This document shows positions 5,389-11,826 of a stretch of 11,826 nt of DNA, piece after piece. Each line of letters starts with the position of its first letter. Within the stretch, counting starts at the first letter, position 1. The notes beneath the pieces are model-generated. The model saw only the letters and a program-made list of their open reading frames with translations, did no database searches and had not been told where the DNA came from. Origin of the DNA: Leptolyngbya sp. SIO4C5 (lineage in GTDB: Bacteria; Cyanobacteriota; Cyanobacteriia; Phormidesmidales; Phormidesmidaceae); NCBI GenBank assembly GCA_010671965.1, contig JAAHIC010000068.1:1-11826 (forward strand). Reading direction: 5' to 3'. A program made the position numbers and the translations under genes.

Positions 5389-5673
5389 CTAGCGAAACTG
5401 CACCACCCGCACCTTCGGATCAGCGAGCTGCTGGTACTGGCTAGCAGTCGCTTCAATCTGCCGGAGCTGCCCCAGTGCGAGGCTGCAGGGACTGCCGTAC
5501 TTAGCCAAAACGCGATCGCTAGCAATTTGCAAAGCAGCCTGTGACCGGGCCACAAAATCAGCTAAATCGTAAGTTTTGCCGGGTTCAAAATATTCTTTCA
5601 CCACCAGCGAAGGGGAATAGCAAAGCGCTTCAGTGCCGTCGGGCCATTGAATTTGAAAACGAATTTCAGGCAT
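5389..5673 (-). CDS. MSMEG_0570-family nitrogen starvation response protein
   Basis: This small protein (94 aa) of unknown biochemistry is a standard member of the nitrilase (Nit1) cluster. Features seen are an N-terminal beta-rich segment MPEIRFQIQWPDGTEALCYSPS, the segment VVKEYFEPGKTYDLADFVARS (about 24-44), a helical region with LQIASDRVLAKYGSPCS, and a C-terminal strand VRVVQFR. There are no catalytic motifs or membrane helices. It follows the glycosyltransferase stop by 8 nt and has no visible Shine-Dalgarno, so translation is probably coupled to that gene. It is the last gene of the leftward cluster. The family call rests on sequence resemblance plus position. Confidence 0.85.
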   Translation of the reverse strand: MPEIRFQIQWPDGTEALCYSPSLVVKEYFEPGKTYDLADFVARSQAALQIASDRVLAKYGSPCSLALGQLRQIEATASQYQQLADPKVRVVQFR

Positions 5674-5681
5674 GTTTGGGG

Positions 5682-6845
5682 CTATTTAGATAGAGCAACG
5701 GGCAGCACTTTAGCATAGGCATCGAGATGAAGCTGTGCCGATCGCTGCCAGGAATACTGCGGCCCAATACGCTGGCTGTTGCGGACGAGAAACTGGGCAG
5801 CGTGGGGCAGCAGCAACCGCAGCATAGCCTTGGCAATAGCGTCAGTCGCTTGAGGATTCACCAGGCAGGCTTGGCTGGGAGAGAGAAATTCGGTGAAGGG
5901 AGCCTGATTGGCCGTGATGACGGGCAGACCAGAGGCGATCGCCTCTAGCAGCACCAGCCCCCAACCTTCCTTAGTCGAGGGCAAGACGAACACATCGGCG
6001 CTGCGGTAGAGGTCAGGCAGGTCGGCGGCGGGAATAACGCCCGGCAGAATTAGCGATTCGCCCGTGACAATATCAAGCTGCTCAGCAAGCTGAAAAAACT
6101 GCTGCCGATAAGGCTGATAGTCAAACAGGGTCGCCCCACCGGCAATTACGAGCTGAGCCGTGGGTACCTGCTGCCGCACTTGGGCAAAGGCCCGCAGCAG
6201 ACGCAGTGAATTTTTACGCGGTTCAATGCCGCCAACGGTGAGAAAAGTAGGTCGCTGGGTCAGGCCGTAGCGCTGACGGATGGCCGCTTCCTGACCGCTA
6301 AACTGGGGCGAAAAGCGCTGAAGATTGACGCCGTTTAGCACTTTGGGCGCGTCAATCCCATAGTCCTGCCGCAGCACTTGCTGCCAGCGATCGCTGACGC
6401 ACAGGCACAGATCTGGCAGCCGAATTGACTTGTGCTGACAGCTTTGTAGATACGGACTTTGAAAGTCTTCAATGTGATGCACCGTACGCACAATCGGGCC
6501 AAAGTGAGGCCGTCTCTGCCGCAGTTGGATTAGGGCATTGGCGCTGATGCAGTCTTGGGCGTGATAGAGATCGTAGCGGCGATTACCTTGCTGCAGAGCC
6601 GCTACAAACTCCTGAATTCGCTGATGGATGAGCTGATCAATAGCGCTAGGAGCAGGCCGAGCCGGAATTAGACAGCACTCGCAGGCCAGTTCCCCCTCAA
6701 AGCCGCCGCCATCTTTATCGAGCGCATAGATACAGACCTCATGCCCCAGTTTGGTCAGCGCATTCGCCAGTTCCAGGGTGTGCACCACGCTGCCCCTGGG
6801 CTTAGTGGAATAGGTCAGCAGCGCAATGCGGCGGCGTTCAGTCAT
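5682..6845 (-). CDS. MSMEG_0565-family glycosyltransferase (GT4 type)
   Basis: The product is predicted to transfer a sugar from a nucleotide donor, with retention of configuration, to the unknown product of this cluster. I chose the ATG at 6845 (387 aa) because GGAG lies 9 nt before it; an in-frame TTG at 6860 would add five residues. The N-terminal Rossmann domain has the Gly-rich acceptor loop PRGSVVHTLELANALTKLGH (about 16-35), and LCVSDRW is near 148-154. The C-terminal domain has GGIEPRKNSLRLLRAF (about 205-220) and the EX7E donor motif EGWGLVLLE, with Glu at about 293 and 301. There is no signal peptide, so it is cytosolic. Its first 8 nt overlap the end of the AIR-synthase-like gene (ATGACTGA), implying translational coupling. 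The acceptor is unknown. Confidence 0.88.
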   Translation of the reverse strand: MTERRRIALLTYSTKPRGSVVHTLELANALTKLGHEVCIYALDKDGGGFEGELACECCLIPARPAPSAIDQLIHQRIQEFVAALQQGNRRYDLYHAQDCISANALIQLRQRRPHFGPIVRTVHHIEDFQSPYLQSCQHKSIRLPDLCLCVSDRWQQVLRQDYGIDAPKVLNGVNLQRFSPQFSGQEAAIRQRYGLTQRPTFLTVGGIEPRKNSLRLLRAFAQVRQQVPTAQLVIAGGATLFDYQPYRQQFFQLAEQLDIVTGESLILPGVIPAADLPDLYRSADVFVLPSTKEGWGLVLLEAIASGLPVITANQAPFTEFLSPSQACLVNPQATDAIAKAMLRLLLPHAAQFLVRNSQRIGPQYSWQRSAQLHLDAYAKVLPVALSK

Positions 6846-7803
6846 CGCTAGCAACTCCAAATCCGGTGAGGGTTTCCCAGCGCAGATCCCAAAAGCAGGC
6901 AGCTTCGTCAGCTTGGGTCAGGGTCAAAATGCGATCGCCCGTCACCGTCCCCACCTCCGCACAGATCAGAGGGTGGGGCTGAAAAAATTCCTGTACCTGC
7001 TCAACGCTGCTGGGCCGCACGCTGAGCAAAAAGCCGTAGCTGGGAAAGCTCAGCAACCAGCGTTTTAGCGTCAGTTCCGGCGGACAGGGGACTCGGTCTA
7101 AGTCCAGCACCGCGCCGCAGCCGGAAGTCTCTAGGAGCATGAGCAGGGTGCCGATGAGTCCGCCCATGCTAATGTCCTTGCCCGCATTGCAGAGACCGGC
7201 TGCCGCTAGCTGGGGCAGCAGGTTTAAGTGCGATCGCAGCTCCGTCGGATCGGCCTGAGTCGCCGCGTCCCAGAAGGGATAGTCCGGGTGCGCCTTACCG
7301 CGAAAATTACTCAGCAGCAGCAGCTTGTCTCCTGGCTGAGCATCAAAGCTCGTAATCAGCGCCTGCGATCGCCCTAAAATTGCCACTGACAGAGCGTTAT
7401 AGGGACTTTGACAGCTCGTATGTCCACCCACAATCGGCACCGCAAATGCCTGCGCTGCCGCCACCATCCCCTCCCACAGAGGCGCGGCGGCGGCGGCTGA
7501 CTGGCTCCACAGGGTATCTACGACAGCTAGCGGTTGTCCCCCCATCGCATAGATATCGCTGACATTCACCAGCACCGAACACCAGCCGGCAAACCAGGGA
7601 TCTGTCTCCACCAGTTTCGGCCAGATGCCCTCTGCCGCCAACAGCAGATAGCCCTGCCCGTCTGGAATCGCAGCGCAGTCGTCTCCTAGCAAAATGGCTG
7701 ACTCAGCGTTGATCCCAGCCAGCCGCCGTGCCACCGCCTGAATATCTTGTTTCTGGCGAATACCGAGCGCCTGCCGCAGTTCTATAGTCAGTGCCGCCAG
7801 CAT
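6838..7803 (-). CDS. Sll0787-family AIR synthase-related protein (PurM/HypE/ThiL fold)
   Basis: This 321-residue ATP-binding enzyme belongs to the superfamily of PurM, ThiL, HypE and SelD, which activate a substrate by phosphoryl transfer. Visible motifs are LLGDDCAAIPDG (about 39-49), whose Asp residues would bind Mg-ATP, NVSDIYAMGGQPLAVVDTL (about 80-98), GGHTS near 126 and, in the C-terminal domain, KDISMGGLIGTLLMLLE. It is not PurM itself: the PurM signature is absent and the protein sits in the nitrilase cluster. Its substrate is unknown. Phosphorylation of a carboxylate or amide-type intermediate is a reasonable inference. The ATG shares one base with the TGA of the GNAT gene (TGATG), and its end overlaps the glycosyltransferase start by 8 nt. 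Confidence 0.9.
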   Translation of the reverse strand: MLAALTIELRQALGIRQKQDIQAVARRLAGINAESAILLGDDCAAIPDGQGYLLLAAEGIWPKLVETDPWFAGWCSVLVNVSDIYAMGGQPLAVVDTLWSQSAAAAAPLWEGMVAAAQAFAVPIVGGHTSCQSPYNALSVAILGRSQALITSFDAQPGDKLLLLSNFRGKAHPDYPFWDAATQADPTELRSHLNLLPQLAAAGLCNAGKDISMGGLIGTLLMLLETSGCGAVLDLDRVPCPPELTLKRWLLSFPSYGFLLSVRPSSVEQVQEFFQPHPLICAEVGTVTGDRILTLTQADEAACFWDLRWETLTGFGVASDD

Positions 7804-8330
7804 CAGGAAACCTGGCGCGATCGCAGCATTGCTGCCTGTGGCAGCGGGCGCATTTCACCGCTAGGGGGATAGTAGTTTAAGTCAGCTTCCATCAGGTGAT
7901 GGGGGCGATTGCAGAGGCTAATTTCTTCTAAAGAAGTCCAGTGCAGCCGTTGGAAGAAGCGCACATTTTGCAACTGGACGGTAGCTAAAAAGCGATCGCA
8001 GCCCCAGGCGTTAGCGGTTGTGACTGCTTTATGAATCAGCCCTTTGCCGATACGCCCCACGCGCCGATAATTAGGGTGTACTCCCAGCCGCCCGCCATAC
8101 CACTGACGCGGCCCAGTTTCGTAAATGCGAACGACGCCGACTACCTGCTGGCCAGCAATCACCTCATGCTCAACCGCGATAATCGGATAGGCGTGCTCGT
8201 CGATGTCATCTGCGTCGTGCCCGCTGAACAAGCCTTGTTCTTCGCAGAAAATGGTCTGCCGTAGGTTGAAGTAGGCTCGGATCTGGCTGGGCGATCGCGC
8301 TAGTTCAAAGCTGTACCGTCTCAGGGCCAT
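7803..8330 (-). CDS. MSMEG_0567/Sll0786-family GNAT N-acetyltransferase
   Basis: The product is predicted to move an acyl group from acyl-CoA to an amine. The 175 residues include an N-terminal region with FNLRQTIFCEEQGLF (about 21-35), typical of this family, the strands IIAVEHE and VVGVVRIYE (about 50-71), and the acetyl-CoA motif A, GVHPNYRRVGRIGKGLIHKA (about 83-102), with the pyrophosphate-binding RRVGRIGKG. The substrate is not known. A strong GGAGGA Shine-Dalgarno (8341-8346) precedes the ATG, and the radical SAM stop lies 22 nt upstream. The end overlaps the next gene by one base. A strong RBS here after a hairpin-forming repeat could secure translation of the second half of the operon. 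Confidence 0.9.
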   Translation of the reverse strand: MALRRYSFELARSPSQIRAYFNLRQTIFCEEQGLFSGHDADDIDEHAYPIIAVEHEVIAGQQVVGVVRIYETGPRQWYGGRLGVHPNYRRVGRIGKGLIHKAVTTANAWGCDRFLATVQLQNVRFFQRLHWTSLEEISLCNRPHHLMEADLNYYPPSGEMRPLPQAAMLRSRQVS

Positions 8331-8352: not shown

Positions 8353-9492
8353 CTAAATGTCTATGCTTGATGGGCACGCTTTGCTTTGCCCATCCTCTGG
8401 GTCTAAACCCTCCTCGAATGTTGATAAGGCGGAACACGCGCCGCACTTGGCGCATCCGGCTTTGATTTCGGCTGCTGACATTCCTGCCTGCCGCAGCAGT
8501 GCGCCCACCTGCTGATACAGAGCAAACATAAAGTCACTGTCAGGGGCGGGATGGTTAGCCAACGGCGTATCGGTGATGGGGACAAACGGCACCACAAAGG
8601 GATAGACACCGAGAGCAATCAGGCGATCGCACGCCTCCACCAGTCCCTCTAAGCTGTCTCCCAGTCCGGCCAGCAGATAGGTACTCACCTGCCCTCGGCC
8701 AAACACGTCTACAGCAGCGGCAAAGGCCGCAAAATATTTGCTCAGGGGCACCTCGGCCTTACCGGGCATAATCCGGGCGCGGATCGCTGGGTCTACGGCT
8801 TCCAGGTGCATCCCCAAGCTGTCAATGCCCGCCGCCTGCATCCGCTCAAACCAGATGAAGTCATCCGGCGGCTCACACTGGGCCTGAATTGGCAGATTCA
8901 CCCGCGCTCTGATGGCCTTAGCACATTCAGTCAGATAGGCCGCGCCGCGATCGGGGGTATGCGGCGTTCCCGTCGTCATCACCATATGCTTCACGCCGTC
9001 GAGTCGCACTGCCGCTTCTGCCACTTCCGCAAGCTGCTCCGGCGTTTTGCGGGCCAAAGTGCGGCCCGCTTCCAAAGACTTTTCAATGGCACAGAACTGG
9101 CAGGCAGTGGCCGGATCGCGGTAGCGCTTGCAGGTTTGCAGCACCGTCGTCGCTAGCACGTTATGGCTATGCAGCAGGGCAATCTGCCAGTAGGGAATGC
9201 CGTCGGCAGTGCTGAGGCTGTAGAACTGAGGCTGCTGGGGAAACGCAAGGGGGGCGATCGCGCTGCTGGCCTGTTCTAGCTGCACCGAGCGATCGGGCTG
9301 AATTTGAGCGGTGTAGGGAGACTCGGCAGCCGTCCCGGTATAGATTGGCACCATCACCGTCGTACCCTCAATGGTGACCGCCTTGTGGTCAGACGGCCCC
9401 GCCCCACCCTTCCGCCCCGCTGCCCCCACAGTGGCATCGACGAGTTTAAGGCCACGGGTTTGCAATTCTGTAATCAGGCGTTGTTTATTCAT
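8353..9492 (-). CDS. MSMEG_0568/Sll0785-family radical SAM protein
   Basis: The product is predicted to be an S-adenosylmethionine radical enzyme with a [4Fe-4S] cluster. Its 379 residues have Cys121, Cys131 and Cys134 in a CX9CX2C pattern (CKRYRDPATACQFC) instead of the common CX3CX2C. The expected TIM-barrel core follows, including HMVMTTGTPHTPDRG, LGMHLEAVDP and TYLLAGLGDS. A second set, Cys347, Cys350 and Cys353 (GCAKCGACSA), near the C-terminus may bind another cluster. Residues about 366-375 are encoded by a REP-like repeat (8369-8396), so the extreme C-terminus differs from what I expect for the family. The start is an ATG with no visible Shine-Dalgarno, and a 102-nt gap follows the nitrilase gene. 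The reaction is unknown; a step making or modifying a nitrile-containing intermediate is inference. Confidence 0.92.
   Translation of the reverse strand: MNKQRLITELQTRGLKLVDATVGAAGRKGGAGPSDHKAVTIEGTTVMVPIYTGTAAESPYTAQIQPDRSVQLEQASSAIAPLAFPQQPQFYSLSTADGIPYWQIALLHSHNVLATTVLQTCKRYRDPATACQFCAIEKSLEAGRTLARKTPEQLAEVAEAAVRLDGVKHMVMTTGTPHTPDRGAAYLTECAKAIRARVNLPIQAQCEPPDDFIWFERMQAAGIDSLGMHLEAVDPAIRARIMPGKAEVPLSKYFAAFAAAVDVFGRGQVSTYLLAGLGDSLEGLVEACDRLIALGVYPFVVPFVPITDTPLANHPAPDSDFMFALYQQVGALLRQAGMSAAEIKAGCAKCGACSALSTFEEGLDPEDGQSKACPSSIDI
8369..8396 (+). repeat. REP-like palindromic repeat, copy D, inside the radical SAM gene end
   Basis: The arms GATGGGCA and TGCCCATC are identical to copy B, and the loop differs at one base (TTTG for TTCG). 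It lies within the last codons of the radical SAM gene, 13 nt before its stop codon in the direction of transcription and just upstream of the GNAT ribosome-binding site. As RNA it would form a stem-loop between two operon genes. Confidence 0.8.
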
Positions 9493-9594: not shown

Positions 9595-10632
<1,038 letters not shown>

Positions 10633-11231: not shown

Positions 11232-11286
11232 AGTGTGAATCCCTTAGAATTTGCGCTGAGCGATTAGTTAGAATCGCTTTTCAGCC

Positions 11287-11328
11287 ACCTTAAACGCCTG
11301 ATTTTGTGTTTCCCGTATTCGCTATTAC
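11287..11328 (-). promoter_or_regulatory. NtcA-activated promoter of the leftward operon
   Basis: On the minus strand GTA-ATAGCGAA-TAC (11315-11328) matches the NtcA consensus GTAN8TAC exactly. The -10 box TAAGGT (11287-11292) fits TAN3T and lies 22 nt after the box, the canonical class II spacing. Transcription should start near 11280, about 50 nt before the ATG at 11231. NtcA with 2-oxoglutarate activates such promoters under nitrogen limitation. Confidence 0.87.
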
Positions 11329-11567
11329 AAAATGCCAACGTCTGCCTTAATGGATAGGGCCAGTAGATTTTGAAGGGCAAAAAGGGCGATCGCCCCCAGT
11401 TACCCCTGTCGAAAGTGATAGGTCATGCAGTTTTAGCGATCAGGCTGCCGCCTGAAGCTGAACCTGCAATAGGGATAATTTAAGGTCTTGCAACGGGCAA
11501 TCGCGCTTGTTCTGTAAAAGTTATGGAGGTTGTGGGCGATCGCGGCCAGGTATTGACTCAGTGATTT

Positions 11568-11599
11568 TTGTTCACCCTAGTCAAATCAATAGGTGACAA
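11568..11599. repeat. Spaced inverted repeat in the divergent promoter region
   Basis: TTGTTCACC (11568-11576) and GGTGACAA (11592-11599) are inverted copies apart from one extra T, separated by 15 nt. They lie about 70 bp upstream of the rightward NtcA box. This could be an operator for a second regulator, but no known motif is recognised and it may be chance. Confidence 0.3.
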
Positions 11600-11670
11600 G
11601 CAACCAATGCAGGCTTGAAACGCTGCCATAAATTAGCCCCCCTATCTTTAAGCGTAGATCCAACTGATCT

Positions 11671-11712
11671 GTAGCTGAACATACAAGCTTTCAGCTAGAC
11701 AGCTTTTATGGT
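11671..11712 (+). promoter_or_regulatory. NtcA-activated promoter of the divergent flavoprotein gene
   Basis: GTA-GCTGAACA-TAC (11671-11684) is a second exact GTAN8TAC box. TATGGT (11707-11712) fits the TAN3T -10 box, again 22 nt downstream. Transcription should start near 11719, giving a leader of about 29 nt before the ATG at 11748. Confidence 0.87.
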
Positions 11713-11747
11713 GCAGGTAATATCAGCCTTGCTCCAGGAGTTTGTCT

Positions 11748-11826
11748 ATGGCTACGCACTATTCCGTTTTAATCGTTGGGGGCGGACAGGCGGGGCTGTC
11801 GATGAGCTACTGCCTGCAAGAGCGCG
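11748..11826 (+). CDS. MSMEG_0569-family flavin-dependent oxidoreductase, N-terminus (cut by the right edge)
   Basis: Only 26 codons are present. They begin MATHYSVLIVGGGQAGLSMS, a beta strand followed by the FAD-binding GxGxxG loop (Gly11, Gly13, Gly16), and continue YCLQER. This matches the start of FAD/NAD(P)-dependent monooxygenase-like proteins. Position beside the MSMEG_0572-type gene in a complete Nit1 cluster makes the MSMEG_0569 family the best call. AGGAG at 11736-11740 lies 7 nt before the ATG. It would supply an oxidation step in the same pathway. The rest of the gene, including the substrate domain, lies outside the window. Confidence 0.8.
   Translation, partial: MATHYSVLIVGGGQAGLSMSYCLQER

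Follow-up and report, generated by a model that had tools for sequence, protein, structure and literature searches.

A conserved inverted repeat beside paired, predicted NtcA promoters of cyanobacterial nit gene clusters

The window analysed here, an 11,826-nucleotide stretch of DNA from Leptolyngbya sp. SIO4C5, carries a nit gene cluster in which nitB and nitH point away from each other across an intergenic region of 516 bp. This region is likely to contain two class II NtcA promoters, each furnished with a second operator that is bound by a GAF-LuxR regulator acting together with NtcA. Read directly from the sequence were the predicted promoters, the operator at a constant distance, the lack of this operator in the tested glnA and urtA promoters, and the co-occurrence of the regulator with the cluster.

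The nit cluster of the window and its NtcA boxes

The gene letters nitB to nitH follow the Nit1C cluster nitHBCDEFG, as given in the accessible text of PMC9716671. The window holds the Nit1C gene set, with nitB to nitG above the NCBIfam cut-offs and nitH assigned from 26 residues only, and the cluster is linked to the use of nitriles or cyanide as nitrogen. The genes are located as follows:

11748..11826, plus strand: start of nitH, MSMEG_0569 flavin-dependent oxidoreductase (TIGR04046), cut by the contig end
10749..11231, minus strand: nitB, MSMEG_0572/Sll0783 family (TIGR04044, 290.7 bits)
9595..10632, minus strand: nitC, Nit6803 family nitrilase (TIGR04048, 573.9 bits)
8353..9492, minus strand: nitD, MSMEG_0568 family radical SAM protein (TIGR04043)
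7803..8330, minus strand: nitE, MSMEG_0567/Sll0786 N-acetyltransferase (TIGR04045)
6838..7803, minus strand: nitF, sll0787 family AIR synthase-like protein (TIGR04049)
5682..6860, minus strand: glycosyltransferase between nitF and nitG, MSMEG_0565 family (TIGR04047)
5389..5673, minus strand: nitG, MSMEG_0570 family (TIGR04042)

The ATG of nitH lies at 11748, and the contig stops 26 codons on, at 11826. Its match to TIGR04046 has an E-value of 2e-5 over these 26 amino acids, the full-length cut-off being far above it. The intergenic region contains two NtcA boxes with their putative -10 boxes:

11287..11292, minus strand: TAAGGT, -10 box of the nitB-ward promoter, spacing conserved in relatives
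11315..11328, minus strand: NtcA box GTAATAGCGAATAC of the nitB arm, exact GTAN8TAC, predicted start near 11280
11671..11684, plus strand: NtcA box GTAGCTGAACATAC of the nitH arm, exact GTAN8TAC, predicted start near 11719
11707..11712, plus strand: TATGGT, -10 box of the nitH-ward promoter, spacing conserved in relatives

The first-pass annotation had reported both boxes, each with a TAN3T element 22 nt on; all positions were confirmed, the spacer being 22 nt on the minus and plus arms alike. Its judgement that this is very unlikely by chance was overstated, since the composite pattern GTAN8TAC-N22/23-TAN3T gave 29 matches in the whole 5.60-Mb genome, close to the 24 of the reversed control pattern. 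A lone composite match therefore proves little, and conservation is the strong evidence. From the same two counts, the genome-wide expectation was estimated at about 0.02 pairs that face outward and lie within 600 bp, and among the 29 matches the nitB-nitH region was found to be the sole pair within 1 kb. Shuffling of the window yielded a mean of 0.68 GTAN8TAC matches and at least three in 7 of 200 shuffles; the window itself has three. The third, at 6573-6586, lies within the glycosyltransferase gene, is not among the composite matches of the genome and is probably a chance match.

NtcA is encoded in the genome (TIGR03697, 385 bits; cut-off 244.95). Three other readings of the intergenic region were rejected. 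A shared activator site was discarded on the finding that, for each of the two boxes, TAN3T occurs 20-24 nt away only in the direction of its own arm. For a non-coding RNA between nitB and nitH, the single Rfam match scored 18.6 bits, where the gathering score is 93, and for a sigma-70 -35/-10 promoter, two weak sites were obtained against a mean of 0.8 in shuffles. Between the two promoters lie two GGGCGATCGC repeats (11384-11402 and 11534-11552), which we take to be HIP1-like octamers.

Conservation of the promoters and of a second operator

Relatives of nitB were collected from named genome contigs, where 80 loci were kept out of 518 confirmed, and from 34 of 59 genomes, which contributed 30 loci at first and more later; Synechocystis sp. 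PCC 6714, in which nitH is divergent as in the window, was included as well. Deduplication reduced 111 loci to 95; L001 and L085 were omitted as copies, and L145 and L147-L150 were added with gene starts set by hand. A strict promoter was defined as an exact box followed after 22-23 nt by TAN3T, the relaxed form allowing one box mismatch.

Among the 44 divergent nitB/nitH loci, the window included, a strict promoter was found nitB-ward in 34, nitH-ward in 40 and on both sides in 33. Allowing one mismatch, the corresponding values were 42, 43 and 42, the exceptions being L081 with neither site and L103 without the nitB-ward site. The check suggested by the first-pass annotation, conservation of both boxes in divergent relatives, thus gave a positive outcome at 33/44 (strict) and 42/44 (relaxed), and the strict pair did not occur in 100 dinucleotide shuffles of the divergent regions. 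In 38 representatives with less than 92% nitB DNA identity, the strict counts were 28 (nitB-ward), 34 (nitH-ward) and 27 (both), and the relaxed pair was present in 36, compared with 0.18 of 38 on average in shuffles. Against this conservation it is extremely improbable that the two boxes are chance matches, as the genome-wide count of 29 against 24 might by itself suggest. Spacing was equally narrow: TAN3T followed the 96 exact boxes lying within 300 bp of a start in these representatives after 22 nt in 56 cases and after 23 nt in six, and at 21 or 24 nt in none.

NtcA promoters followed the nit genes across other arrangements. With one mismatch allowed and a distance of up to 300 bp, a promoter preceded nitB in 15 of 26 co-directional loci and nitH in 20 of 21 for which enough DNA was available. 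Six co-directional loci whose names place them in the Pleurocapsales or among their relatives (L002-L005, L007 and L033) have the promoter at nitH only, with nitB about 60-190 bp behind nitH, a layout as in a single operon; at L008, neither gene is preceded by a promoter under the same limits. Where nitH is not adjacent to nitB, 15 of 17 loci have a promoter before nitH, and the two promoterless ones are copies cut by the contig end. The NtcA promoter was absent in 10 of the 11 loci of a control list labelled non-cyanobacterial. The eleventh (L064), from a MAG labelled Tatlockia, has a co-directional nit layout with an NtcA promoter and is probably a misplaced cyanobacterial contig.

The claim that both arms carry NtcA promoters is supported by the conservation of the pair against shuffles together with the NtcA gene, and two separate, outward-facing promoters between nitB and nitH are the supported prediction. 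That their activator sites are unshared agrees with the TAN3T elements on their own sides only and with the separate sites of co-directional and non-adjacent loci. The original two-promoter interpretation can be retained; what had gone unnoticed is a second, nit-specific operator.

Alignment of the promoters on the NtcA box revealed conserved bases far upstream. They form the second operator, CCTRNCNNTANNGNYAGR, an imperfect 18-bp inverted repeat upstream of the NtcA box with the two dyads 28 bp apart. The element runs from -30 to -13, counted from the G that opens GTA, comprises CCT, a central TA and AGA/AGG, and was alike in five separate promoter sets (nitB divergent, 42; nitH divergent, 43; nitH co-directional, 20; other nitB, 27; separated nitH, 15). 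Both arms of the window contain it:

11341..11358, minus strand: second operator CCTATCCATTAAGGCAGA, score 11/12, centred 28 bp upstream of the dyad of the NtcA box
11641..11658, plus strand: second operator CCTATCTTTAAGCGTAGA, score 11/12, centred 28 bp upstream of the dyad of the NtcA box

Filtering to less than 80% identity reduced the promoters from 147 to 115. In these, the mean operator score was 9.98/12 at the fixed offset and 3.56 elsewhere, and the fixed offset was the best-scoring one in 107. Because the consensus had been derived from the same promoters, cross-training between 50 nitB and 66 nitH promoters, filtered in the same way, was also run. The matrix trained on nitB promoters peaked at the fixed offset in 61/66 nitH promoters, and that trained on nitH promoters did so in 45/50 nitB promoters.

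As controls, 48 glnA/urtA loci of relatives were scanned and the 40 with a promoter were used. An operator score of at least 9/12 was reached by 102 of 116 nit promoters versus none of these 40 NtcA promoters (maximum 7), in which the box-to-TAN3T spacing is the same as in the nit promoters. Among glnA promoters with an exact box, 5 of 18 had AG alone at the position of the operator, while none of 15 urtA promoters did. A general extended NtcA motif was rejected on the absence of the operator from the glnA/urtA promoters tested. Covariation within the palindrome was likewise set aside, being weak at -27/-16 (54 complementary pairs versus 45.1 expected), with no clear covariation of weaker pairs. 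CT-N12-AG is the core of lux/las boxes, and the operator, an inverted repeat of about 18-20 bp, contains this core.

A combined pattern, AGAY-N11-GTAN8TAC-N22/23-TAN3T, had two matches in the genome of the window, both in this intergenic region, and none when reversed. Across 59 genomes, this one included, it had 46 matches, 36 of them at nit genes by position and 10 elsewhere, and the reversed pattern had 18. Additional regulon genes were not accepted on this basis, as the 10 matches outside nit loci do not exceed the 18 reversed ones. A tighter pattern (AGAY half, box and -10 box) was found 33 times in 29 of 242 genomes of the class, namely in 29 of 100 genomes with nitB versus 0 of 142 without, the reversed pattern having 13 matches. 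Outside nit loci, AGAC at the distance typical of the nit operator was seen in a promoter before a frame that by eye resembles glutamine synthetase (L280; G049:C15:76797).

A candidate GAF-LuxR regulator

Open-frame clustering around the nit genes of 87 loci revealed a recurrent neighbour protein of about 360-530 residues, where complete, at 24 loci, a count that has one genome twice (L162, L287) and includes some cut or frame-shifted pieces. GAF_2 and GerE (LuxR-type) domains were present in 3/3 proteins scanned, and the matches listed from a fold search cover the GAF part. In an NCBIfam scan of four regulators, none reached a cut-off among the matches listed. The protein is annotated as LuxR-related next to nitH in PCC 6714 and lies between nitB and nitH at L282; in a genome of the same genus as the window (G001), it stands beside nitH on a different contig from nitB.

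With an E-value limit of 1e-50, profile A1 detected the regulator in 96 of the 242 genomes. Regulator and nitB occurred together in 87 genomes, nitB only in 13, the regulator only in 9 and neither in 133, corresponding to a Fisher value of 1.8e-40, uncorrected for kinship. Six of the nine genomes with the regulator and no nitB are at most 95% complete. Of the 87, 34 have the regulator no farther than 10 kb from nitB and 53 do not.

All 100 nitB genomes were given a composite promoter score (operator 12, box 6, -10 box 3) within 500 bp of nitB, earlier coordinates being used for 10. The threshold of at least 17/21 was reached by 78/87 genomes with the regulator versus 4/13 without, and by 0/100 mononucleotide shuffles; nine regulator-bearing genomes fell below 17. 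The four regulator-less genomes with a composite promoter are G000 (contig end), G023 and G225 (91% and 87% complete) and G211, whose 17 equals the threshold. Two more (G153 and G251) have an NtcA promoter and a composite score of 16, and in G217 the composite promoter lies about 1 kb upstream of nitB, before another frame. Six nitB genomes of 1.6-3.0 Mb (G079, G133, G160, G171, G230 and G247), which we would guess to be picocyanobacteria, jointly have no regulator, no NtcA promoter within 300 bp and no composite promoter. At the G217 locus (L281), a frame that looks metF-like by eye lies between the composite promoter and nitB, and the genome has no regulator match.

In the genome of the window, a full regulator was not found, the best match (127.6 bits) covering the GAF part only, and nitH had no match at E <= 1e-80. 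As the contig ends inside nitH and no nitH match was obtained, both nitH and the regulator may lie in an assembly gap beyond 11826. Autoregulation via a composite promoter was rejected, such a promoter being absent from 8/8 upstream regions of the regulator. A recognition-helix residue was compared with the operator base at -27: R went with G in 17/17 cases and S with G in 12/38. Since the R-type regulators form one clade, this agreement counts as one event, and helix-base coupling was not accepted as independent evidence. A partial regulator match with an in-frame stop was noted at G011:C165:4490-5140; this genome has no nitB match, and such a remnant would be expected if the regulator gene decayed once the cluster was lost.

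A proposed two-input model and its alternatives

In the proposed promoter layout, the 18-bp operator would be followed 28 bp on (dyad to dyad) by the NtcA box, a 22-nt spacer and TAN3T. NtcA with 2-oxoglutarate would switch on both arms at nitrogen shortage, and the GAF-LuxR (GerE) regulator, which many relatives encode next to nitH, would sit on the operator, about 69.5 nt before the predicted start, and supplement the general nitrogen input with one specific to the pathway. We infer that the regulator binds the operator, that its effect is activation and not repression, and that a small molecule is sensed by its GAF domain; the ligand might be a nitrile, cyanide or a product. The wider form of this proposal, in which a dedicated GAF-LuxR protein co-occupies nit promoters with NtcA at the 28-bp dyad spacing across much of the cyanobacterial class, making a two-input switch for Nit1C that responds to nitrogen shortage and a pathway-specific small molecule, is in our judgement evenly balanced between true and false.

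The sequence is neutral on the direction of the effect, and a second protein acting as repressor or anti-activator, silencing the cluster without substrate, would fit the gap of approximately 7 bp predicted between the two footprints. For activators, however, a position upstream of a class II activator is the more usual one, as in CRP-type promoters. Moreover, ammonium lowers sll0782, the presumed regulator in Synechocystis, and the sll0783 operon alike in the wild type according to the accessible data of PMC10094980, and we regard repression as unlikely. Slightly less probable is that another protein binds the operator, itself real, and that the GAF-LuxR gene accompanies the cluster for some other reason. 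Binding by the GAF-LuxR protein is a prediction, the gene does not lie within 10 kb of nitB in 53/87 genomes, and the operator is kept in some genomes without it. Against this stand the strong co-occurrence, which extends to unlinked cases, the CT-N12-AG core, which fits GerE-type regulators, and the agreement of helix type with operator base, though within one clade.

It is also conceivable, and quite improbable, that only two ordinary class II NtcA promoters are present and that the palindrome serves to extend the contact with NtcA or is an element for the RNA polymerase alpha subunit shared by NtcA promoters in general. The fixed distance to the NtcA box and the position near -69.5, from which alpha-subunit contact would be possible, are consistent with such a role. 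The palindrome is, however, a sequence-specific inverted repeat, and none of the 40 glnA/urtA control promoters reached a score of 9. We favour two class II NtcA promoters, each with an operator for the GAF-LuxR regulator.

Compared with the canonical class II NtcA promoters of glnA, urtA and nirA, as described in the accessible part of PMC3898017, the nit promoters share GTAN8TAC, TAN3T and, by spacing, a box near -41.5. They differ from the canonical form in the additional 18-bp operator 28 bp upstream, which the glnA/urtA promoters tested do not have. Likeness to lux/las boxes extends to the inverted repeat, the CT-N12-AG core and a GerE-family protein often encoded nearby; unlike in lux/las systems, the nit operator lies upstream of an NtcA box and the candidate protein has a GAF domain. 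The lux box is a 20-bp inverted repeat, as stated in the available text of PMC7683790.

The same gene set is described for Nit1C (PMC9716671) and for Synechocystis sll0783-0787 (PMC10094980), with nitrogen or ammonium control reported in the portions available. There, high induction of sll0783 under nitrogen starvation is reported (PMC3901256, accessible part), which speaks against a second inducer being strictly required. Ammonium lowered the sll0783 operon and, in a table, sll0782 in the Synechocystis wild type (PMC10094980, text available); from its number and annotation, sll0782 is presumed to be the orthologue of the regulator. Induction by cyanide is reported for Nit1C outside the cyanobacterial context in the accessible text of PMC9716671. 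The available portions of the cyanobacterial Nit1C literature (PMC9716671, PMC10094980) name no regulator or operator, and candidates for both are proposed here. In the accessible literature on NtcA, Nit1C, sll0782 and lux boxes, no link of sll0782 or of the operator to the nit cluster was found; a prior report connecting NtcA with sll0783 is possible.

The accessible literature describes control of the cluster in cyanobacteria by nitrogen starvation, as an inducer, and by ammonium, which lowers it; to this the operator likely adds a pathway-specific layer. A named operator together with a candidate regulator, for which no NCBIfam cut-off was reached among the matches listed for four proteins, offers a handle on what Nit1C senses and uses in cyanobacteria.

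The middle domain of the regulator contains a mostly kept CxYCRL motif, in which the cysteine at A1 position 247 of L058:2663-3844 is invariant; it is a possible ligand or redox site.
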